The position numbers and the translations under genes are program-made. Positions 2,510 to 17,660 of a stretch of 64,000 nucleotides of DNA are shown here, piece after piece. The notes under the pieces were generated by a model. That model did not search any database, was not told the DNA's origin, and saw only the letters and a list, made by a program, of their open reading frames with translations. Location of the stretch: assembly GCF_000800015.1 (NCBI RefSeq), contig NZ_JUGR01000001.1, forward strand, positions 1,550,001-1,614,000, given 5' to 3'. Origin of the DNA: Terriglobus sp. TAA 43. Its GTDB lineage: Bacteria; Acidobacteriota; Terriglobia; Terriglobales; Acidobacteriaceae. Numbering within the stretch: the first letter of the stretch is position 1; each line of letters opens with the position of its first letter.

Positions 2510-3643
2510 ATGGCAAACCAAGTGCCTGATCACGAGCGGAACCGCGTGCCCGGGAGCCAGAATGCGTCTCCGGCAAACGATACGATTCCTTCGCAGCGGG
2601 ATTTAGCCTTTAAGACTTTTGGCGTGATGGAAGACACAGAGAAGCGCAAGAACCGCTTCTTGGCTGCGTTTTTCATCAACACCACTCTGGCTGCGCTCCT
2701 CATCTGGATCAGCGTTCTGACGGCGAGGCGCGTCGTCGAGCAGCATATCGAGAAGACCATCACATTCAACAATGTGAAGCCACCAGAACCTCCGAAGCCG
2801 GTGCCACCTCCAAAGCTCCCCAAGCCGCCGGTGGTGAAGGTCGAGCCGCCGAAGATCCTGCCGAATGTTCCAAAGATTGAGGTCCCGGAGCCACCGAAGA
2901 TCCAGCCGCAGCCTGTTCTGAAGGCGCAGCCGATCATCACGCCCGCGCCGCCGAAAGCGGTAACGCCTCCTCCCGCGCCGAAGCCGGTAGCTATCAGCAT
3001 TGCGCAGGCAGCATCCGTTCCAAATCACGATGCTCACCCGTCCGCTGTTCGCCTGGGAAGCATGACCAATCCGATCAACAACACCAGTGGCCCTGCAGTG
3101 TCTCCGGTAAACCTGGGACACAGTGGCGCACCGGGAATGCCCGCAGGCAATACCGGCTATGGCCCGCCATCGGCCATTGCCATTGCCGGTTCCGGCTCGC
3201 CGAACGGTCAGATGGGTGGCCACGACCGGGCTGCACAGCCGATCAAGGGCATCAATACTGGCGTTCCAGGAGGCACCGGCCCTCTGACCGCGAAGCCCGT
3301 GGGTGCCATTGCGATTGCAAAGGGACCTACCCCTCCGGCAATCCCGCAAGCGCAGGTCAATACCGGTCCAGCCAAGAGTGCGCCGAAGGTTATCTATAAA
3401 CCGAAGCCGGAATATACGGAAGAAGCCCGAAGCCTACGCCTTGAAGGCACCGTTTACATCAAAATTCACGTCTCAGCATCCGGATCTGTTTCCGTGATGG
3501 GCGTGCAAAGCGGTCTTGGCCATGGCCTGGATCAAGCTGCGGTGAGAGCGGTACAGGGCATGCGTTTCCAACCCGCAATGGCCAATGGTCAACCGACCGA
3601 TTGGGACGGCGTGGTCAACATTAACTTCCAGCTCGCCGGTTGA
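2510..3643 (+). CDS. TonB-family energy-transducing protein, 377 aa
   Basis: Inner-membrane-anchored periplasmic protein of the TonB type. Residues about 50-72 (FLAAFFINTTLAALLIWISV) form the single membrane anchor. They are followed by a long proline/lysine-rich stretch (PPEPPKPVPPPKLPKPPVVK and similar) that can span the periplasm, then a Gly/Asn/Ser-rich linker, and a C-terminal TonB_C domain from about residue 280 (KPEYTEEARSLRLEGTVYIK, then GLDQAAVRAVQGMRFQPA). It should couple the proton motive force through ExbB/ExbD to outer-membrane receptors, although no exbBD or receptor lies nearby. ATG 2510 was chosen over a TTG at 2492 because GAGG at 2494-2497 can then serve as ribosome binding site. 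An unusually long cytoplasmic N-terminus (about 48 residues) is present. Confidence 0.88.
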   Translation: MANQVPDHERNRVPGSQNASPANDTIPSQRDLAFKTFGVMEDTEKRKNRFLAAFFINTTLAALLIWISVLTARRVVEQHIEKTITFNNVKPPEPPKPVPPPKLPKPPVVKVEPPKILPNVPKIEVPEPPKIQPQPVLKAQPIITPAPPKAVTPPPAPKPVAISIAQAASVPNHDAHPSAVRLGSMTNPINNTSGPAVSPVNLGHSGAPGMPAGNTGYGPPSAIAIAGSGSPNGQMGGHDRAAQPIKGINTGVPGGTGPLTAKPVGAIAIAKGPTPPAIPQAQVNTGPAKSAPKVIYKPKPEYTEEARSLRLEGTVYIKIHVSASGSVSVMGVQSGLGHGLDQAAVRAVQGMRFQPAMANGQPTDWDGVVNINFQLAG

Positions 3644-3753
3644 GGGGAGATGGATCTTCTGCACAGAGCCGGAGATTCTGACCCAATTCCGCTTAGATTT
3701 TTGTACGCTGAAACAGTTCCCTACCCGGGACTTTCATAGGAGCCATCCAAACC

Positions 3754-5688
3754 ATGAGGAACCTTCGCAGGTCTTGCATCGCGGGTGTTGCCGCCACACT
3801 TCTTACCGCATCAACGGTGCCGGCGCTGGCATTTCCAATCCTAGGCAAGAAGAAAAAGGATGATCTACCCGCACGCAAGCTCACCCCGACCCAGTCCGCT
3901 CTTCTGGACAAAGCCATTGCGCGCGAGCAGGAAGTCATCAAAGTCATTCAGGAGCGCGCACCACTCGTTGAGACTTATATCCAGAACATGAAGCCCGATC
4001 CGGCGCTTCTACAGGTTCCTGTCTCCGATCAGCACTTCCTGGGCCGTGTGGAGTTCAAGAAGGTTCTCAACGGAGAGACCTACGAGACCGTTGACAATCA
4101 CAAGGCAAAGGGCAAGATGGGATTCTTCAAGAATTCCGTTTCCTTCATCACGGGCATCAACAAATCGTTCCACCTGCAGTTCAATGAAGTGGGCTTTGTC
4201 CAGATGATCCTGGTGGATGCCCACGGGTTCGACAAGACGAATTACAACTTCGGCTTTGTTCGCAATGACTTTCTCGGTTCGGTTCCAACGATGGTGTTCG
4301 ACGTGGAACCCGCTAAGGGCAGCAGCCGCGGACGCTTCTTTGGCCGCATCTGGGTGGAACGCCGGAACGGAAACATCGTTCGCTTCAACGGCTCCTTTGC
4401 TGGCAGCGAGAAGGACTTCCGCGAGTTCTATCACTTCGATTCCTGGCGCACGAACGTACAGGAGAACCTGTGGCTGCCGACGTCGTTCTACGTAGAAGAG
4501 AGCGATCCCAAGAGCACCGAAAATACGGTGAAGTTCAAGGCTGTGAATCACGTGTGGGGGTACGCTCTGAAGGTTCCCACCAGCGATGCCGAGAACGTCG
4601 ATGTGGAGGTTCAGGGCGCAACCGACGTCTCGAACGATGCACAGGATACATCGCCTCTTGGCGCGCAGCGCGCTTGGGTACAGCAGGCAGAGGATAACGT
4701 TGTAAACCGGCTCTTCCAGGCGGGCTTGCTGGATGCTCCCTCAGACTTCGACAAGATTCTGGAGCAGGTTGCCGGAAACATCTTGGCCTACAACAACATT
4801 CAGGTGGCGCGCCCCATTCGTGTGCGTACGTTGCTGACGGAACCACTGGAATCGTTGGCCATCGGCAACACGATCGTGCTTTCGAAGGGTCTGATTGATA
4901 CCACGGCGATTCCTGGCAATAACAACGAACAGGTGAACAACCTGTACGCGATTATCGCCTTCCAGGTGGCGCACATCATCCAGGGACATCGCCTGGATAC
5001 GAAGTACGCGTTCAACGATCGCCTCCTCTTCCCCGATACTTCGACCTTCGAGAAGATCCCGATGCATCACACGGATAAGGACAACGAAGAGGCAGCGAAG
5101 AAGGCTCTGGAATTGCTCCAGCCGAAGGAACTGAACGACGCTGGAAGTCAGTTCGGTCTCTATCTGGCAGAATTGCAGACTCGCTCGAAGGCCCTTACGG
5201 CGCTGAACGAGCCGATGGTTGGCGATTCGTTGGTAAAGGACGTGAAGACGAATACCTTCTGGCTTCAGCCGCTGATTGGCAAAGGTCCGAAGCTGGATCC
5301 AAACGACCTGAAGCAGAATGCGGCTATGCCACTGTCATCGTTCCTGCGCTTCGACCCTTGGACCGATCAAGTGGTACAGATGCACGCGTCCTATGAACCT
5401 CTGCTGTCGTCGCGCGACAAGATGCCGTTTGAAGTTACTCCGGTGTACCTGAAGCTTAGCTACTACAAGCCTGCAGCGGACGGAGCAGCTGCAGCAGCCG
5501 CGGGCGCCAATGCAACGACCGATGCCAACGGCAATGCCATCAGCGCACCACCGGCAGGAACAGGGACCACGGCAGTTCCCGCACAGGCTCAACCTTCTGC
5601 AGGAGCACCTCCTGCGGACACAACACTTACGCCGGCTCCAGCTGCTGGCACAACTGGAACGGCGAACCCGCCGGCACCACGACAGTAA
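3754..5688 (+). CDS. Secreted M48-like protein with degenerate zinc motif, 644 aa
   Basis: A signal peptide (MRNLRRSCIAGVAATLLTAS to about ALAF) directs export. The N-terminal half (residues about 60-290) is a globular domain with no family I can name. Residues about 330-480 resemble the M48 (Ste24/HtpX/LoiP-like) peptidase fold: IRVRTLLTEPLESLAIGNTI, then a helix that should hold HExxHxxxxH. Here the helix reads F403-Q404-V-A-H407-I-I-Q-G-H412, so the first zinc-binding His and the catalytic Glu are replaced while the two later His remain at exact spacing. It is therefore probably not an active protease. The C-terminal 90 residues are Ala/Pro/Gly/Thr-rich low complexity. It follows the TonB-like gene by 110 nt. 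Function unknown. Confidence 0.7.
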   Translation: MRNLRRSCIAGVAATLLTASTVPALAFPILGKKKKDDLPARKLTPTQSALLDKAIAREQEVIKVIQERAPLVETYIQNMKPDPALLQVPVSDQHFLGRVEFKKVLNGETYETVDNHKAKGKMGFFKNSVSFITGINKSFHLQFNEVGFVQMILVDAHGFDKTNYNFGFVRNDFLGSVPTMVFDVEPAKGSSRGRFFGRIWVERRNGNIVRFNGSFAGSEKDFREFYHFDSWRTNVQENLWLPTSFYVEESDPKSTENTVKFKAVNHVWGYALKVPTSDAENVDVEVQGATDVSNDAQDTSPLGAQRAWVQQAEDNVVNRLFQAGLLDAPSDFDKILEQVAGNILAYNNIQVARPIRVRTLLTEPLESLAIGNTIVLSKGLIDTTAIPGNNNEQVNNLYAIIAFQVAHIIQGHRLDTKYAFNDRLLFPDTSTFEKIPMHHTDKDNEEAAKKALELLQPKELNDAGSQFGLYLAELQTRSKALTALNEPMVGDSLVKDVKTNTFWLQPLIGKGPKLDPNDLKQNAAMPLSSFLRFDPWTDQVVQMHASYEPLLSSRDKMPFEVTPVYLKLSYYKPAADGAAAAAAGANATTDANGNAISAPPAGTGTTAVPAQAQPSAGAPPADTTLTPAPAAGTTGTANPPAPRQ

Positions 5689-8187: not shown

Positions 8188-8266
8188 GGCGTATCTCCGA
8201 AGAAGCCGACACTCAATCCGGCCGCTCTCTCCACTATAAGCACTTCTGATGACGCTATCACTGCAT

Positions 8267-8290
8267 ATAAGGATTCCTTATCGCTATACT
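8267..8290 (+). promoter_or_regulatory. LysR box and leuA promoter
   Basis: ATAAGGATTCCTTAT at 8267-8281 is a perfect 7-bp inverted repeat around one base and contains the LysR-type T-N11-A pattern. A good -10 hexamer TATACT follows at 8285-8290, with a poor -35 (TGCATA, 8262-8267), as expected for an activator-dependent promoter, though the box lies in the -35/-10 spacer, where bound protein could also repress. Ribosome binding site GAGGAAAA lies at 8299-8306. Confidence 0.65.
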
Positions 8291-8308
8291 GTGTCTCAGA
8301 GGAAAACG

Positions 8309-9475
8309 ATGAGCACTGCTTCCGATCGCGTGTATTTCTTCGACACAACGTTGCGTGACGGTGAACAATCACCGGGCTGCACCATGCACCATGCGGAGAA
8401 GCTCCGCTTTGCCCACCAGCTTGCATCGCTTGGCGTGGACATTATTGAAGCCGGGTTTCCAATCGCATCCGATGGCGATTTTGAGTCTGTCCGTGCGATT
8501 GCGAGCGAGGTCAAAGGACCGCGCATTGCCGCACTCGCCCGCTGCAAGACCATTGACATTGAACGCGCCGGAAAAGCCGTTGAGTCGGCCGCCTCAAATC
8601 GCATTCACACCTTCATCGCTTCCAGCGATCTGCACCTGGAAGCGAAGCTCCGCATCACGCGCCAGCAGGCGCTGGACCAGGCTGCGGAATGCGTTCGCCT
8701 GGCCAGGACCTACACCGACGACGTGGAGTTTTCCGCGGAAGATGCTACTCGCTCTGATCCAGATTTTCTGGTGCAGATTGTGCAGGCGGCGATTGACGCA
8801 GGAGCAACCACCATCAACCTGCCAGATACCGTGGGCTACTCCACGCCAGCGGAATACCGCGCCATGTTTGAAATGATCCGCAGCCGCATTCCCAATGCTG
8901 ACAAGATCATCTTCTCGACGCACTGCCATGATGACCTTGGCCTTGCCGTAATCAATACAGTGGCAGGCCTGCAAGGCGGCGCGCGCCAAGTGGAAGTGGC
9001 AATGCATGGCATTGGCGAACGTGCCGGCAATGCATCTCTGGAAGAGGTTGCGGCCATTCTGAAGATTCGGAATGACGTATTCCCGTACACCAACAATCTG
9101 GTTCTGGACCAGATTGGACCAACGAGCCGCATGTTGGACGAGATCATCTCCTTCACGCCTTCGCCCAACAAGGCAATCGTAGGCAAGAATGCATTCGCGC
9201 ATGCCAGCGGCATTCACCAGCACGGTGTGCTGGCCAACCCGCTAACGTACGAGATCATGTCCGCCGCGCACTTTGGTGTGGATGCCAACACGATTGTGCT
9301 GGGCAAGCACAGCGGTCGCCGCGCACTGGAACATCGCCTGAAGGAACTTGGATTCAACCTGACGAAGGAAGAACTGGACCAGGTATACACGCGCTTTACC
9401 GCGTTGGCTGATCGCAAGAAGGATATCTACGATCAGGACATTACGGCGCTTGTGCCGCAAACTACCACTGTTTAG
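8309..9475 (+). CDS. leuA: 2-isopropylmalate synthase, short form without regulatory domain, 388 aa
   Basis: Condenses acetyl-CoA with 2-ketoisovalerate, the first committed step to leucine. DTTLRDGEQSPGCTM (residues 11-25) gives the substrate Arg and metal Asp of the HMGL-like TIM barrel, and H205-C-H207-D-D supplies metal-binding His residues. GKNAFAHASGIHQHGVL and the flanking region belong to the linker/subdomain I. The protein stops at about residue 388, where the usual family (about 510-560 aa) would begin the C-terminal LeuA dimer domain that binds leucine for feedback inhibition. Start ATG 8309 follows GAGGAAAA by 2 nt. Position before leuBCD argues for isopropylmalate synthase rather than homocitrate or citramalate synthase, but these share the fold. 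Confidence 0.9.
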   Translation: MSTASDRVYFFDTTLRDGEQSPGCTMHHAEKLRFAHQLASLGVDIIEAGFPIASDGDFESVRAIASEVKGPRIAALARCKTIDIERAGKAVESAASNRIHTFIASSDLHLEAKLRITRQQALDQAAECVRLARTYTDDVEFSAEDATRSDPDFLVQIVQAAIDAGATTINLPDTVGYSTPAEYRAMFEMIRSRIPNADKIIFSTHCHDDLGLAVINTVAGLQGGARQVEVAMHGIGERAGNASLEEVAAILKIRNDVFPYTNNLVLDQIGPTSRMLDEIISFTPSPNKAIVGKNAFAHASGIHQHGVLANPLTYEIMSAAHFGVDANTIVLGKHSGRRALEHRLKELGFNLTKEELDQVYTRFTALADRKKDIYDQDITALVPQTTTV

Positions 9476-9530: not shown

Positions 9531-10631
9531 ATGAATCTGAAGATTGCGCTCCTCGCCGGTGACGGCATCGGCCCGGAAGTTACCAACGAAGCAGTGAATG
9601 TACTGAACACCGTTGCAGCCGCGGGTGGAGACACCTTTACGTACACCTCGCTGCTGATTGGCGGCGCAGCGATTGACGCACACGGAACGCCGCTACCGGA
9701 AGAGACACTGAAAGAGACACTTGCCAGCGACGCTGCATTCCTTGGCGCCGTTGGTGACAACAAGTTCAATTCCCTTCCGCCCAGCGAGCGTCCGGAAGCT
9801 GGCCTCCTGAAGATTCGTGCGGAGCTTGGCGGCTTTGCAAATCTTCGCCCTGCGACGGCGTACAAGGCTCTTGCGGATAACTCGCCGCTGCGCCCTGAAA
9901 TCACCGAGGGCGTGGATATTCTCTTTGTTCGGGAACTGTTGGGCGGTCTTTATTTTGGCCAGCCACGCGCATGGGACAAGACGACCGACCGCGCGCACAA
10001 CACGATGGTCTACACACGCCATGAAGTAGAGCGCGTTGCCAGGATCGCATTCGATATCGCCGCGAAGCGCGATAAGAAGAAGGTCACCAGCGTTGACAAG
10101 GCGAACGTGCTGGAATGCTCGCAGTTGTGGCGCGCAGTTGTTACAGAAGTTGCGAAGGACTATCCCACCGTCACCCTCGAACACCAGTTGGTGGATTCGA
10201 TGGCGATCCATCTGATGAATCGTCCGCGTGATTTTGATGTAGTGCTTACGGAGAATCTGTTCGGCGACATCCTCTCCGACGAGAGCGGCGTCATCACTGG
10301 ATCGCTCGGCATGCTTCCCTCTGCCACGCTTGGCGGCAAGGTAAACCTGTACGAGCCCGTGCATGGCTCCGCACCGGATATTGCAGGACAGGGGAAGGCT
10401 AATCCGATTGGCGCGATCCTCACTGCTGCGCTTGTTCTTCGTCATTCCGCCGGCTTGAATGCCGAAGCAAAGATCATCGAGGACGCTGTGGTGAAGGTAT
10501 TGGAGGCGGGATATCGCACGACCGACATTGCACGTGGCGACATTCCCGGACAGCAGACCGTCAGCACCTCAAAGATGGGTCAACTCGTCCTTGACCAGGT
10601 CACTGCCGAGTTGGGCGCTGCTGCGTCCTAA
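9531..10631 (+). CDS. leuB: 3-isopropylmalate dehydrogenase, 366 aa
   Basis: NAD-dependent oxidative decarboxylation of 3-isopropylmalate to 2-ketoisocaproate. [20 protein letters not shown] is the conserved start; [13 protein letters not shown] and [14 protein letters not shown] carry the substrate-binding Arg residues and Glu of the LeuB-specific loop; [20 protein letters not shown] and [19 protein letters not shown] are the metal and NAD regions. Length matches the family (about 360 aa). It lies 55 nt after leuA, with AAGGAAAG upstream of the ATG. Confidence 0.97.
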
Positions 10632-10679
10632 ACATTTCTGTTGAGCAACACCGGGCTTTTGCCCCAGAGGTAAGCCACA

Positions 10680-12185
10680 ATGTCCGCACCAAAGACACTG
10701 TTTGAAAAAGTCTGGCAGCAGCATCTGGTTGCAGAACCGGCAGGCGAACCTGCCATTCTGTACATCGATCTGCAGCTTGTGCACGAAGTGACCTCGCCGC
10801 AGGCTTTCGACGGTCTGCGCATGACAGGCCGCAAGCTGCGCCGTCCAGATCGTCATATTGCAACGGTGGACCATAACGTTCCTACCACCAGTGCAGCAGA
10901 TCGCCTTGTGATTGCCGACCAGGTCAGCGCTGCGCAGGTGAATGCGCTGCGTAAGAACTGCGCTGAGTTTGGCATTGAGTTCTTCGATGTGCAGGATTCG
11001 TCGCAGGGCATTGTGCACATGATTGGACCGGAACTTGGCGCAACCAAGCCGGGCATGACGATTGTCTGCGGCGACTCGCACACATCGACGCATGGCGCTT
11101 TCGGTGCGCTCGCCTTTGGTATTGGCACCAGCGAAGTGGAACACGTGATGGCCACGCAGACGCTGCCCCAATCCAAGCCAAAGACCTTCCGCATTACGGT
11201 GGATGGCGAGCTTCCTTTCGGCATTACGGCAAAGGACATCATCCTGGACATCATTGGCCGCATTGGCACCGATGGTGCGACAGGATATGCGATTGAGTAC
11301 GCCGGTTCTGCCATCCGCGCGCTGAGCATGGAAGGCCGTATGACAGTGTGCAACATGAGCATTGAAGCTGGTGCGCGCGCCGGCATGATTGCTCCGGATG
11401 AAAAAACCTTTGCATATCTGAAGGGTCGCCGCTTCTCTCCGGGAACGCGCCCTACGAATCTTGATGCACGTCCTCCGCGCTCTGTGCCCGATGGGCAACA
11501 GCTTGGATCTGCAACAGACGCCTACGACAATCAGTGGGAAGAAGCCGTTGCGCACTGGAAGACATTGCCTACGGATGAAGGCGCTGTCTTTGATCGTGAA
11601 CTGTTCATCGATGCTGCAACACTGGCTCCCGCAGTAACGTGGGGAACATCGCCGGGTATGCACGCCACCATTGATGGCAAGGTGCCGACGCTGGACGATG
11701 CGCCAACCGAGGCTGATCGTAAGAGCTTTGCCAAGGCCTATGAGTACATGGATCTGAAACCAGGCACGCCGATGGAAGAGATCAAGATTGACACCGTCTT
11801 TCTTGGCTCCTGCACGAACGGCCGCATTGAAGATCTTCGCGCCGCCGCTGAAGTGATCAAAGGACACCACATTGCCACGAAGGTTCGTGCGATGGTGGTT
11901 CCCGGCTCGCAGCATGTGAAGAAGCAGGCTGAAGAAGAAGGTCTGGATGCCATCTTCAAGGAAGCAGGCTTTGAGTGGCGTGAACCCGGCTGCTCCATGT
12001 GCCTGGGCATGAACCCTGACATTCTGCAGCCCGGCGAGCGTTGCGCTTCTACATCGAACCGCAACTTTGAAGGTCGTCAGGGACGTGGTGGACGTACGCA
12101 TCTTGTTTCGCCAGAGATGGCCGCAGTTGCCGCAATCACCGGGCACTTCACCGACATTCGTAAGTGGAAGAAGGAGGCGCGCTAA
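10680..12185 (+). CDS. leuC: 3-isopropylmalate dehydratase large subunit, 501 aa
   Basis: Aconitase-family 4Fe-4S subunit that isomerises 2- to 3-isopropylmalate with LeuD. The N-terminal part [20 protein letters not shown] and [20 protein letters not shown] are typical; the cluster cysteines lie in [20 protein letters not shown] and in [11 protein letters not shown]. It is about 30 residues longer than the E. coli enzyme; the extra length is in the hydrophilic segment around residues 250-300 ([20 protein letters not shown] and following). The stop TAA overlaps the leuD ATG by one base, so the two subunits are probably translationally coupled. Confidence 0.97.
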
Positions 12186-12814
12186 TGGAACCGATTAACG
12201 TTCTTACATCGAAAGCAATGCCGCTGCCGCTGCCGAACATCGACACGGACCAGATCATTCCGAAGCAGTTCCTCAAGCGCATTGAGCGTACAGGTTATGG
12301 CGACTTTCTGTTCTACGACTGGCGCTACAACCTGGACGTTCCGGATGATGTTTCGCCGAACAAGGACTTCGTGCTGAACAAGCCGGAATATCAAGGCGCA
12401 GAAATTCTGATTGCAGAAAAGAATTTCGGCTGCGGTTCGTCGCGTGAGCATGCGGCGTGGGCCATTTTCCAGTATGGCTTTCGCGTGGTGATTGCACCAA
12501 CGTTTGCAGACATCTTCTACTCCAATGCAGGCAAGAACGGCATCATCCTTGTTCGTCTGAGCGAAGAAGATGTGACCGCGCTGATGACGCATTGCACGGA
12601 AGATACGAACAACCAGGTCACAGTAAATCTGGAAGCGCAGACGGTCACCGACGAACATGGCTTCTCAGCGCATTTTGACATTGATCCCTTCCGCAAGTAT
12701 TGCCTGCTGAATGGACTGGATGACATCGGCCTGACACTGCGCCATGTAGATGCGTTGAACGATTTTGAAGCGAAGCACGATAACGAATTCTGGTCCGCGC
12801 CGAAAACGGCATGA
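12185..12814 (+). CDS. leuD: 3-isopropylmalate dehydratase small subunit, 209 aa
   Basis: Swivelling-domain partner of LeuC. NIDTDQIIPKQFLKRIERTG, then FLFYDWRYN and the hallmark EKNFGCGSSREHAAWAIFQY are diagnostic. Length fits the bacterial small subunit (about 200 aa). The start ATG at 12185 overlaps the leuC stop (TAATG), and its own stop overlaps the ATG of the next, 61-codon gene (ATGA, 12811-12814). Confidence 0.97.
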   Translation: MEPINVLTSKAMPLPLPNIDTDQIIPKQFLKRIERTGYGDFLFYDWRYNLDVPDDVSPNKDFVLNKPEYQGAEILIAEKNFGCGSSREHAAWAIFQYGFRVVIAPTFADIFYSNAGKNGIILVRLSEEDVTALMTHCTEDTNNQVTVNLEAQTVTDEHGFSAHFDIDPFRKYCLLNGLDDIGLTLRHVDALNDFEAKHDNEFWSAPKTA

Positions 12815-12996
12815 ACACATTCGGCTCATCCCTAAAGCTTCTCAACCAGACAACCTACCAAGAGGGTTGGGATGCAAAAATGCGGGGTGATCGTTTGGGA
12901 TTGTTTAGCTACTGGACAGATTACAGTTGGCGAGCTGGATGGCGAGACGCCAAGAACGAGCTACAAGCTCGAGAAAAATTAGAGGATTGCAAGTGA
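12811..12996 (+). CDS. 61-aa protein coupled to leuD and ilvD; ribosome modulation factor/CrpP-like pattern
   Basis: The gene starts inside the leuD stop (ATGA at 12811-12814) and its TGA at 12994-12996 overlaps the ilvD GTG start (GTGA at 12993-12996), so it is embedded in the operon and likely translated by coupling. The protein has YQEGWDAKMRGDRLG and then YSWRAGWRDAKNEL. This fits the pattern G-x2-A-x3-G ... W-x2-GW-x2-A seen in ribosome modulation factor (RMF) and CrpP-like small proteins, and the Tyr-to-Trp distance differs by one residue from E. coli RMF. The usual Cys-Pro-Tyr of RMF is not present. Homology is my inference from pattern; the real function may be different. Confidence 0.6.
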   Translation: MNTFGSSLKLLNQTTYQEGWDAKMRGDRLGLFSYWTDYSWRAGWRDAKNELQAREKLEDCK

Positions 12997-14720
12997 GCAA
13001 CGAACTCGATCCCGGTAAACGTAATTCCATCGTCCTTACTGAAGGCCCCAATCGTGCAGCTGCACGCGCCATGCTGCGCAGCGTTGGTTTTACCAAGGAT
13101 GACCTGCACAAGCCCATCATTGGCATTGCAAACACTTGGACAGAGATTGGTCCTTGTAACTATCACCTCCGCGACATTGCTGAGGCAGTGAAGGAAGGTA
13201 TCCGCGCTGCAGGCGGCACACCGATGGAATTCAACACCATCACCATCTCCGACGGCATCACGATGGGCACGGAAGGCATGAAGGCATCGCTCATCTCGCG
13301 CGACATGATTGCTGACTCCATTGAACTGGTCTCGCGTGGCAATAGTTTTGATGGACTGGTATGTATCGCAGGATGCGACAAGAACATGCCCGGCGCAATC
13401 ATGGCGCTGGCGCGCCTGGATATACCCGGCATGATGCTGTACGGCGGTTCGATTGCCCCGGGCCACATGCATGTGGGTGCGGATGGCAAGACGCCGCAGC
13501 CCGGTAGCGACAAGACCATCGACATCACGATTCAGCAGGTGTTTGAAGCTATTGGCGCGCACGCAGCGGGCAAGATTGACGATGCGCAATTGGAAGAAGC
13601 CGAAGGCACCGCATGCCCCGGACCCGGCGCATGTGGTGGCCAGTTCACGGCGAACACTATGGCTATGGCGGGTGAATTTCTGGGCATCAGCCCCATGGAA
13701 ATCACCGGCGTCCCGGCGATGAGTAAGGACAAGCACGCCGCGAGCCGCGAAGCTGGCAAGCTGGTGATGGATCTGGTGCGCAAGAACATTAAGCCTTCAG
13801 ACATCCTCACGCGTCAGTCCATGGAGGATGCCATTGCTGCAGTGTGCGCCAGCGGTGGCAGCACCAATGCTGTGCTTCACCTGATCGCCGTTGCGCATGA
13901 ACTGAAGATGCCACTCACCATGGACGACTTCGACATCATCAGCGAGAAGACTCCGTTCATCTGCGATCTGCAGCCGGGTGGCAAGCGTGTCGCACGCGAT
14001 TATCAGGACGCTGGTGGATCGCGTGTGTTGGCAGCGCGTCTGGTTGAAAAGGGATTGCTCCACGGCAACACCCCAACCGTGAGCGGCAAGACAGTTCGCG
14101 AAGAAGCAAAAGCTGCACAGGAAACTCCGGGACAGGATGTGATCCTTCCTTGGTCGAACCCGCTGAAGCCTACTGGCGGACTTGTGATCCTGAAGGGCAA
14201 TCTTGCACCCGATGGTTGTGTGGTGAAGGTAGCGGGACATGAACGCGTTCTCCACACTGGCCCTGCACGTGTGTTTGATTCGGAAGACCTTTGCTTCAAG
14301 GCTGTGGAAGCTGGTGAGATCAAGCCGAACGATGTCTGCGTGATTCGCTACGAAGGACCGAAAGGTGGTCCCGGTATGCGCGAAATGCTCGCTGTTACCG
14401 CTGCGATCAAGGGCATTCCTGAGTTGAGCGAGACGGTTGCTCTGCTTACCGACGGACGTTTTTCCGGCGCAACGCGTGGCCTGATGGCTGGTCACGTGGC
14501 ACCGGAAGCGTTTGACGGTGGACCGATCGCCTTTGTACACGAAGGCGACACCATCACTTTCGACATCAAGGCACGCGAACTCCGCGTGAACATCAGCGAA
14601 GAAGAGCTTGCCAAGCGGAAGGCGAACTTCAAGAGGCCGGAACCTCGCTATAAGCGTGGCGTGTTTGCGAAGTATGCCAACACAGTCAGCTCGGCCAGCC
14701 TTGGCGCAGTGACCAGCTAG
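12993..14720 (+). CDS. ilvD: Dihydroxy-acid dehydratase, 575 aa
   Basis: Fe-S dehydratase common to valine and isoleucine synthesis. CIAGCDKNMPGAIMALARLD and CPGPGACGGQFTANTMAMAG contain conserved cysteines for the cluster; LLTDGRFSGATRGLMAGHVA and GPKGGPGMREML are family signatures. Start GTG at 12993 is chosen because AGAGGA (12981-12986) precedes it by 6 nt and VSNELDPGKRNSIVLTEGPN is the usual N-terminus; the upstream in-frame ATG at 12927 lies inside the 61-codon gene. Overlap with that gene's stop (GTGA) suggests coupled translation. Confidence 0.96.
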   Translation: MSNELDPGKRNSIVLTEGPNRAAARAMLRSVGFTKDDLHKPIIGIANTWTEIGPCNYHLRDIAEAVKEGIRAAGGTPMEFNTITISDGITMGTEGMKASLISRDMIADSIELVSRGNSFDGLVCIAGCDKNMPGAIMALARLDIPGMMLYGGSIAPGHMHVGADGKTPQPGSDKTIDITIQQVFEAIGAHAAGKIDDAQLEEAEGTACPGPGACGGQFTANTMAMAGEFLGISPMEITGVPAMSKDKHAASREAGKLVMDLVRKNIKPSDILTRQSMEDAIAAVCASGGSTNAVLHLIAVAHELKMPLTMDDFDIISEKTPFICDLQPGGKRVARDYQDAGGSRVLAARLVEKGLLHGNTPTVSGKTVREEAKAAQETPGQDVILPWSNPLKPTGGLVILKGNLAPDGCVVKVAGHERVLHTGPARVFDSEDLCFKAVEAGEIKPNDVCVIRYEGPKGGPGMREMLAVTAAIKGIPELSETVALLTDGRFSGATRGLMAGHVAPEAFDGGPIAFVHEGDTITFDIKARELRVNISEEELAKRKANFKRPEPRYKRGVFAKYANTVSSASLGAVTS

Positions 14721-16590: not shown

Positions 16591-17043
16591 TCACTTCCAC
16601 ACAAAACGCTCGTCGAAGCCGACATCGTACTTTGCGAACATGGCCAGCAATTCCTGCTGGAAGGTTCGCGCGCGATGGACTTCTTCCTGCGTTTGCACGT
16701 AGTGGATGAGCGCATCACGGTCCGCAAGGCCAACCGAGAAGACCATGTAACTCTGCTGCCATTTGAAGAAGGCGTTCGGTTCCCCGCTCTGACGAACAAC
16801 GGGAACCGTGACCTTCTTCAGATGATCGACAAGCTTGTGCGCAGTCATCTTGCGCGAAAGGAACAGTGCAACGTGAACATGATCAGCTGTTCCTCCAACC
16901 GCGAGGCAGATGTTCTCGGAATGACTGAGCCGGTCGCGAATGGCCGCATACACAGCGGCGCGAAGCGCATCGTCCTTCAGCACCGGCTGCTGCCGTTGCG
17001 TGCTGAAGATCACGTGCAGCAACACATGATCAATGATCTGCAT
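16591..17043 (-). mobile_element. IS200/REP-associated-type tyrosine (Y1) transposase, 150 aa
   Basis: Single-domain HUH transposase of the Y1_Tnp family. VLLHVIFSTQRQQPVL is the characteristic first strand, GGTADHVHVALFLSRK holds the metal-binding H55-x-H57, and YVQTQEEVH holds the presumed nucleophile Tyr115. All catalytic positions look intact and length (about 150) is normal. It lies on the minus strand, 9 nt after the ilvB stop and divergent from the GNAT gene, inside the otherwise plus-strand leu/ilv cluster. No partner tnpB is present. I saw no obvious subterminal hairpins or REP array at its edges, so it is better read as a domesticated or stranded single gene than a complete insertion sequence. 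Confidence 0.85.
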
Positions 17044-17078
17044 GGTGGCACGAGTATAGCCGCGGAAAGGGTAGCGGC

Positions 17079-17654
17079 GTGACCACTACCTTCCAGCTTG
17101 AAACTGACCGGCTGCTGCTCCGTCCGTTGAACGAAGCCGACCGCGATGATTTCGCCGCCATGAACGCCGATGCAGACGTGATGACCTACTTCGTTTCACC
17201 GATGACACGCGAAGAGAGCGACGCAGCGTTCACACGCTACACCACTCACTTTCAGCAGAACGGATTTGGCTTCCTTGCAGCGCGGGCACGTTTCACCGGC
17301 GAATTCGCAGGCATCATCGGCATGCAGGTGATGCGCTTCGCCGTCCCAAATCTGCCTCAGCCTGCGGTTGAAATCGGATGGCGGCTAAACCGCGCCCAGC
17401 ATGGTCGGGGCTACGCCACTGAGGGTGCACGCGCCATCCTAAACTCGGCATTTCAGGAACATGGTCTCGCTGAAGTCGTCGCGATTACCGCTGTAAACAA
17501 CACTCCATCTCGCCACGTCATGGACAAGCTTGGCATGCATCATGACGCATCACTGGACTTCGATCATCCCAACGTGCCAACCGGTCACACACTTCAGCGG
17601 CACGTTCTTTACCGTCTCGTCAATCCGCGCAGCACAACCCGAGAAGAGGTTTAA
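17079..17654 (+). CDS. GNAT-family N-acetyltransferase (RimJ/RimL-like), 191 aa
   Basis: Starts TTTFQLETDRLLLRPLNEAD, the RimJ/RimL-type opening, and contains EIGWRLNRAQHGRGYATEGA, the acetyl-CoA pyrophosphate loop (Q/RxxGxG/A form), then ITAVNNTPSRHVMDKLGMHH, the conserved Asn-x-x-S-x-x-x-x-x-K-x-G segment. It should transfer acetyl from acetyl-CoA to an amine, possibly a ribosomal protein N-terminus or small molecule; the substrate is not evident. GTG 17079 is preceded by GGAAAGGG at 7 nt. It ends 6 nt before ilvN, so it is co-transcribed with ilvN, an unusual partner for this operon. Confidence 0.9.
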   Translation: MTTTFQLETDRLLLRPLNEADRDDFAAMNADADVMTYFVSPMTREESDAAFTRYTTHFQQNGFGFLAARARFTGEFAGIIGMQVMRFAVPNLPQPAVEIGWRLNRAQHGRGYATEGARAILNSAFQEHGLAEVVAITAVNNTPSRHVMDKLGMHHDASLDFDHPNVPTGHTLQRHVLYRLVNPRSTTREEV

Positions 17655-17660
17655 CGCACT

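Follow-up and report, generated by a model that had tools for sequence, protein, structure and literature searches.

A probable RMF-superfamily accessory gene in a variable leuD-ilvD junction of an Acidobacteriaceae operon

INTRODUCTION

The closest described protein to the one studied here is RMF of Escherichia coli (b0953; PF04957; PDB 2jrm, 4v8g, and 6h4n), which is likewise small and which is described as highly conserved among gammaproteobacteria (PMC8126665). As reported in the same work, replacing C29, G16, W40, or W44 with alanine, or removing five N-terminal residues, abolishes ribosome binding, while the R3A, K5A, R11A, G23A, P30A, and G43A variants still bind but have nearly or fully lost their dimers. 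R3 and K5 contact helix 28 of the 16S rRNA (PMC8126665).

We analyzed a 61-codon gene located in the leu/ilv operon of Terriglobus sp. TAA 43, in a stretch of 64,000 nt (the window). Its product carries both RMF motifs in register. Unlike RMF, it has neither the N-terminal KRQKR-type basic stretch nor the Cys-Pro loop, and its inter-motif stretch is three residues shorter. Further differences from RMF are that the RMF-like proteins encoded at this junction are neutral to acidic, that their genes are set in a leu/ilv operon, and that they are patchily distributed. CrpP is another small protein that shares the RMF-type fold and, as paper titles indicate, is reportedly carried by integrative elements.

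RESULTS

The small gene overlaps both of its neighbors

The open reading frame (ORF) comprises 61 codons, begins with ATG, ends with TGA, and sits between two genes which we take to be leuD (3-isopropylmalate dehydratase small subunit) and ilvD (dihydroxyacid dehydratase), names also used in an earlier, sequence-only reading of this DNA. By family resemblance, the operon presumably starts with leuA-type, leuB, and leuC genes and continues after ilvD with ilvB (Table 1). The sequence-only reading had described a gene locked between leuD and ilvD by an ATGA and a GTGA overlap, and both overlaps, of 4 nt each, are indeed present.

Table 1. Features in and around the small gene, in window coordinates (names of the operon genes are presumed)
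Feature	Position	Strand	Basis
leuA-type gene	8249..9475		family resemblance
leuB	9531..10631		family resemblance
leuC (leuC-type ORF)	10680..12185		family resemblance
leuD	12185..12814	+	ORF; comes after the leuC-type ORF
61-aa gene, probable RMF-superfamily accessory gene	12811..12996	+	ORF, slot homologues, and profile tests
ATGA overlap, small-gene start/leuD stop	12811..12814	+	sequence
Conserved core codons Y16 to A47 (Y-x2-G-x2-A ... W-R-x-G-W-x-D-A)	12856..12951	+	12-member alignment
GTGA overlap, ilvD start/small-gene stop	12993..12996	+	sequence
ilvD, starts with GTG	12993..14720	+	ORF
ilvB	to 16581		family resemblance

By eye, a GAGG is seen 5' of the ilvD GTG (TTAGAGGATTGCAAGTG), and no clear Shine-Dalgarno site was found upstream of the small gene. 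Promoter-like and terminator-like sites were looked for between positions 12600 and 13100 and none was found, which fits with a dependence of the small gene on the operon. Judging from the overlaps, its translation would be coupled to that of its neighbors in an ordinary-looking manner.

Homologues occupy the same junction in two other genomes

Among 398 genomes of the family, the window protein clearly matches two other proteins, in genomes G327 (E = 3.2e-7) and G274 (E = 8.5e-7), both of which belong to another genus than the window. The two homologues, 37% and 32% identical to the window protein, respectively, are placed between leuC/leuD and ilvD. Residues Y16, G19, A22, R25, D37, S39, W40, R41, G43, W44, D46, and A47 are common to all three proteins of this position (the slot proteins), and synonymous codons differ at these shared residues. 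In G327, the stop of the small gene and the ilvD ATG have a four-base overlap, and in G274 the stop abuts the ilvD GTG, so that in none of the three genomes does a gap separate the small gene from ilvD. The starts of the two homologues lie 19 and 117 bases past the leuD stop. The sequence-only reading had made its proposal depend on the conservation of the ORF and of its overlaps in relatives; the ORF is conserved, and so is the contact with ilvD (two genes overlap it by four bases and one abuts), but the ATGA start is found only in the window among the three.

The openness of the frame alone is weak support for a gene, since 2.8% of 100,000 shuffles that preserve the composition of the stretch remain open as well. 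A profile built from nine relatives encoded elsewhere gave the window protein 23.7 bits, a value reached by none of 2,000 shuffles (1,893 gave a score; the best was 12.9). Searching a collection of named genomes with the window protein returned no relative; with the A2 profile, two loci out of 91 pattern matches were confirmed in this collection (RYN_15 and KBS 89), and none out of 62 in viral contigs. Taken together, the small gene encodes a conserved protein.

Kinship with RMF runs through the relatives

The window protein gave no real match in Pfam, NCBIfam, or PADLOC, and the place of the small gene was not among the matches of a PF04957 search of the window's genome. Any kinship with RMF therefore runs through the relatives. 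In the HMM check with PF04957 suggested by the sequence-only reading, the G274 homologue scored 26.6 bits (E = 6.1e-6), just below the curated Pfam cutoff of 27.9 bits, but neither the window protein nor the G327 homologue scored. The NCBIfam RMF model, with a cutoff of 40, gave the G274 homologue 14.3 bits.

Profiles built from several members were then compared with proteins of known structure. A four-member profile found one PDB sequence at E values up to 10, which was RMF 2jrm (E = 0.034). A twelve-member profile (A4) found seven, and ranks 1 to 3 were the RMFs 2jrm, 4v8g, and 6h4n (E = 0.012 to 0.04), the fourth match appearing only at E = 1.7. Alignment with four RMFs by hhalign gave a probability of 72 and an E value of 3.3e-5, and none of 200 column-shuffled RMF alignments reached its score (27.5 versus a best of 20.1). 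The resemblance proposed from the sequence is thus borne out by profiles, and membership of the small gene in the RMF superfamily is well supported by them.

G19, A22, W40, G43, W44, and A47 are invariant in all 12 members, and Y16 and D46 are nearly invariant. Residues G19, A22, G26, W40, G43, W44, and R45 of the window protein are in register with G16, A19, G23, W40, G43, W44, and R45 of E. coli RMF, that is, the RMF glycines and tryptophans between the two helices, G16, G23, W40, G43, and W44, all have their counterparts. In the G327 homologue, the counterpart of G23 is an aspartate. Of the motifs pointed out earlier, G-x2-A-x3-G and W-x2-GW-x2-A therefore agree with RMF, whereas the distance from tyrosine to tryptophan (24 residues versus 23) is off register. 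Indeed, Y16 of the window protein aligns with His13 of E. coli RMF, and Tyr17 of RMF aligns with W20 of the window protein, so that the similar spacing is a coincidence.

Structure modeling was in both cases of poor confidence. The first model (pLDDT 63.4) has its main helices at residues 13 to 24 and 32 to 60, and its top Foldseek match was 2jrm (E = 5.8, TM 0.34); for the second, of a KBS 89 relative (pLDDT 61.6), Foldseek returned no RMF.

The cargo of the leuD-ilvD junction differs between near relatives

ilvD N termini were found at the set cutoff in 286 of the 398 family genomes. We read 111 loci, one per genome, in a nonrandom sample made up of the 30 top-scoring loci, 80 hand-picked ones favoring one genus, and that of G327. 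Both genes were readable in 101 loci, and the other 10 had no leuD on the stretch examined. The gap between leuD and ilvD measured at most 60 nt in 40 of the 101 junctions, 61 to 200 nt in 33, and more than 200 nt in 28, with a range of -1 to 942 nt (L076-L185, L021).

An insert ORF of at least 60 aa was present in 28 of the 101 readable junctions, two of these ORFs (L124 and L141) looking doubtful by eye. According to blastp, they form a 10-member family, a 5-member family, the three RMF-like genes, a 2-member family, and eight single cases. By eye, the 10-member family is of secreted type and the 2-member family is lipoprotein-like; the 5-member family has a subthreshold resemblance to uracil-DNA-glycosylase (E = 0.087). 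For 10 of the 28 ORFs, the start codon and the leuD stop share a 4-nt overlap. The position of the RMF-like gene, for which the sequence-only reading had asked a synteny search, is thus conserved in two other genomes, but the gene accounts for only 3 of the 101 readable junctions.

Of the 19 junctions from the window's genus, we could read 16. Ten of these are without an insert, and the remaining six hold inserts that all differ in kind. The nearest relative, G005, has an empty site of 23 bp versus 180 bp in the window, with flanks that are 89.4% and 91.9% identical to those of the window. What the junction holds differs, therefore, even between near relatives.

We placed the insert classes on a leuD tree, using 97 of the 101 rows because leuD was incomplete in the other four, and found them scattered. 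All classes together needed 24 changes versus a shuffled mean of 25.2 (a value as low was seen in 38 of 200 shuffles), and the RMF class needed three changes for its three rows. The empty class and the secreted-type class were mildly clustered (as low in 32 and in 22 of 500 shuffles, respectively). For the RMF-like gene, a single origin in the slot, followed by losses or by exchange through the conserved flanks, would fit; repeated gain may also have occurred.

A search for recombination tracts at the 3' end of leuD showed that identity between the window and G005 is 84% at positions 12551 to 12700 versus 89 to 97% elsewhere in 10601 to 12550. A clearly better donor for 12551 to 12700 was not found, G013 being about 89% identical there versus 87 to 89% for G005. 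In G013 (L089 / L224), the leuD protein is 95.7% identical to that of the window and the ilvD N terminus 82%, a contrast which may reflect exchange near the junction.

Leftover copies of the flanks were found in 1 of the 47 junctions with a gap of at least 100 nt, that of G051. There (L085), the 42 nt lying 118 to 159 nt past the leuD stop, at the start of the insert ORF, repeat the ilvD start with 88% identity. Such a footprint would be expected had recombination near the start of ilvD brought in the insert, which possibly happened in this genome.

Relatives elsewhere include double-unit proteins next to resolvase-like genes

Among the 12 members, the RMF-like slot proteins are mutual best matches and cluster with one another (93/93, 95% of bootstrap trees), in a tree that is small and weakly supported, built from short proteins, with no starred branch and a program warning of long branches. 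The G+C content of the small gene is lower than that of its region in all three genomes (47.8 versus 57.3%, 50.9 versus 57.1%, and 48.9 versus 61.8%). Since leuD itself has 51.7% G+C, this is weak evidence of a recent arrival.

Relatives elsewhere are concentrated in one genus, with matches at E values up to 1e-3 in 19 of 62 genomes, three of which had supplied rows of the profile. Over the phylum, relatives occur in 5 of 297 genomes, the window's own counted in. RMF-like matches at E values up to 1e-3 are found in six places in Acidobacteriaceae bacterium KBS 89 (G339; L187-L191) and in eight in G398; some have internal stops, and several in G339 are intact single-unit ORFs.

Two RMF-like units are present in the longer relatives, whose genes are preceded at three loci by a resolvase-like gene, in what looks like a mobile cassette. 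At L199 (positions 3305 to 4733), genes for a serine resolvase (PF00239, E = 1.6e-35), an RMF-like double unit, and an HNH-like protein (PF01844, E = 0.02, below cutoff) follow each other end to end with 4-nt overlaps. Resolvase-like and RMF-like genes are also found at L197 (119 to 1170) and L201 (3272 to 4663), where the neighbors were named by resemblance to L199, the only locus analyzed with Pfam; L201 also has an HNH-like gene, its RMF-like protein is shorter, and the gene ends mostly overlap.

Relatives gave weak to moderate profile matches to PHROG families of unknown function (20222, 23350, 21177, and 10492): PHROG 20222 matched the second unit of double proteins (5.4e-7 and 3.8e-6), and PHROG 23350 matched the G274 homologue (0.0065). 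The window protein matched no PHROG at E values up to 1, and it has no relative in 50,697 phage and 72,556 plasmid records. The G274 homologue had one weak place in phages (Rhizobium phage RHph_I42, E = 0.4) and no match in plasmids, the double-unit protein had no match in phages or plasmids, and E. coli RMF had none in phages.

DISCUSSION

We favor, with a probability of roughly two in three, the reading that the small gene is an acquired RMF-superfamily accessory gene that occupies a permissive cargo slot within the leu/ilv operon. Ribosomes terminating on leuD would reinitiate at the ATG that overlaps its stop, translate the small gene, and then reinitiate at the ilvD GTG, aided by its GAGG. 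Such a slot would give a newcomer steady coexpression and leave ilvD unharmed. The most likely fold of the product is a two-helix hairpin of the RMF type, and its most likely role is that of a small binding module; because residues that RMF needs for ribosome binding and for dimers are missing, a protein partner or another 16S rRNA site is likelier than the classical RMF site.

The sequence-only reading had proposed that the gene links leucine and valine synthesis to translation. This proposal is weakened because the slot holds unrelated genes, because the overlap with leuD recurs in 10 of the 28 insert ORFs, and because the nearest relative has an empty site. As relatives carry varied unrelated small genes or none, position alone does not tie amino acid synthesis to ribosomes. 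Rather than that of an RMF-specific leucine/valine link, the junction has the appearance of a cargo slot that is permissive and coupled by translation, and a link of leucine/valine to the ribosome is unlikely. The gene would owe its position more to the site being favorable for landing than to any regulatory tie to leucine or valine, although the three slot copies at one junction could also have been retained vertically since long ago, for a role selected at that place.

An alternative that we consider improbable is that of a working ribosome-binding factor, which would inactivate ribosomes together with the host HPF, as does RMF, which binds ribosomes and promotes 100S dimers with HPF, in E. 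coli, and whose level would be tied to leuD-ilvD. The profile-based kinship and the retained counterparts of RMF G16, G23, W40, G43, and W44, joined in the window by R45, are in agreement with this idea. Furthermore, an S30AE (HPF) protein, about 157 aa long, is encoded in the host genome, in which PF16321, the long-HPF C-terminal domain, found no match. An HPF with no recognized PF16321 leaves room for an RMF-like partner, but S30AE is present in 18 of 19 genomes of the window's genus, where 1 of 16 readable junctions has the RMF-like gene. Moreover, alignment with RMFs showed that the basic residues R3, K5, and R11 are missing (the N terminus of the window protein is MNTFGSSLKLLNQTT), and the Cys-Pro of the loop (C29 and P30) is missing from the window protein and both homologues. 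In E. coli, C29A or loss of five N-terminal residues abolishes binding and P30A abolishes dimers (PMC8126665). In addition, R45 is absent from the two slot homologues, and the three slot proteins have predicted pIs of 7.9, 4.8, and 6.7 and predicted charges of about +0.5, -5.3, and -0.3. The ribosome or RNA binding put forward in the sequence-only reading thus finds no support in the sequence, and with a neutral to acidic charge and neither the basic N-terminal residues nor the Cys-Pro loop, the protein is RMF-like but not a demonstrated ribosome binder. We are still more doubtful of a variant in which an RMF-type factor outside proteobacteria, rebuilt without the rRNA-contact residues and translated with the branched-chain amino acid enzymes, acts on ribosomes or HPF. 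If it were true, translation would become directly linked to leucine/valine supply in strains gaining the gene in this slot.

Descent from a mobile element is also unlikely to be the better account. Here, the small gene would be a domesticated single-unit relative of the proteins from resolvase - RMF-like - HNH-like cassettes in the same bacterial family, and its original task would have been with that element, for example in the control of a nuclease or recombinase. The end-to-end arrangement with 4-nt overlaps at L199 and the resolvase-like and RMF-like genes at L197 and L201, named by resemblance to L199, are consistent with this view. However, no recombinase adjoins the window gene or its slot homologues, the phage and plasmid records gave no match to the window protein, and the slot proteins group apart from the cassette proteins, in the small, weakly supported tree with its long-branch warning. 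As for an untranslated chance frame, the share of composition-matched shuffles that stay open and the missing ORF in the near relative G005 would agree with it, but a protein core that two other genomes keep in the slot while differing in synonymous codons, and a score versus relatives from elsewhere that no shuffle reached, make it highly improbable.

In the open literature searched by title and abstract opening, we found no report of a leuD-orf-ilvD gene, of an acidobacterial RMF, or of RMF-fold relatives. A diverged Acidobacteriaceae branch with single and double units and without the rRNA-contact residues suggests that ribosome hibernation is not the only role of this fold. The leuD-ilvD junction, with constant flanks, different cargoes, and near relatives with empty sites, offers a natural series of how overlaps of start and stop may let new small genes join a core biosynthetic operon and be coexpressed with it.

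The junction after ilvB varies too. In the window, ilvB is followed by an IS200-like transposase gene (16591 to 17043, minus strand; PF01797, E = 1.5e-14) and a GNAT gene (17079 to 17654, plus strand; PF13302, E = 4.9e-32), and positions 17061 to 17659 are replaced by about 44 nt in G013 and G004.
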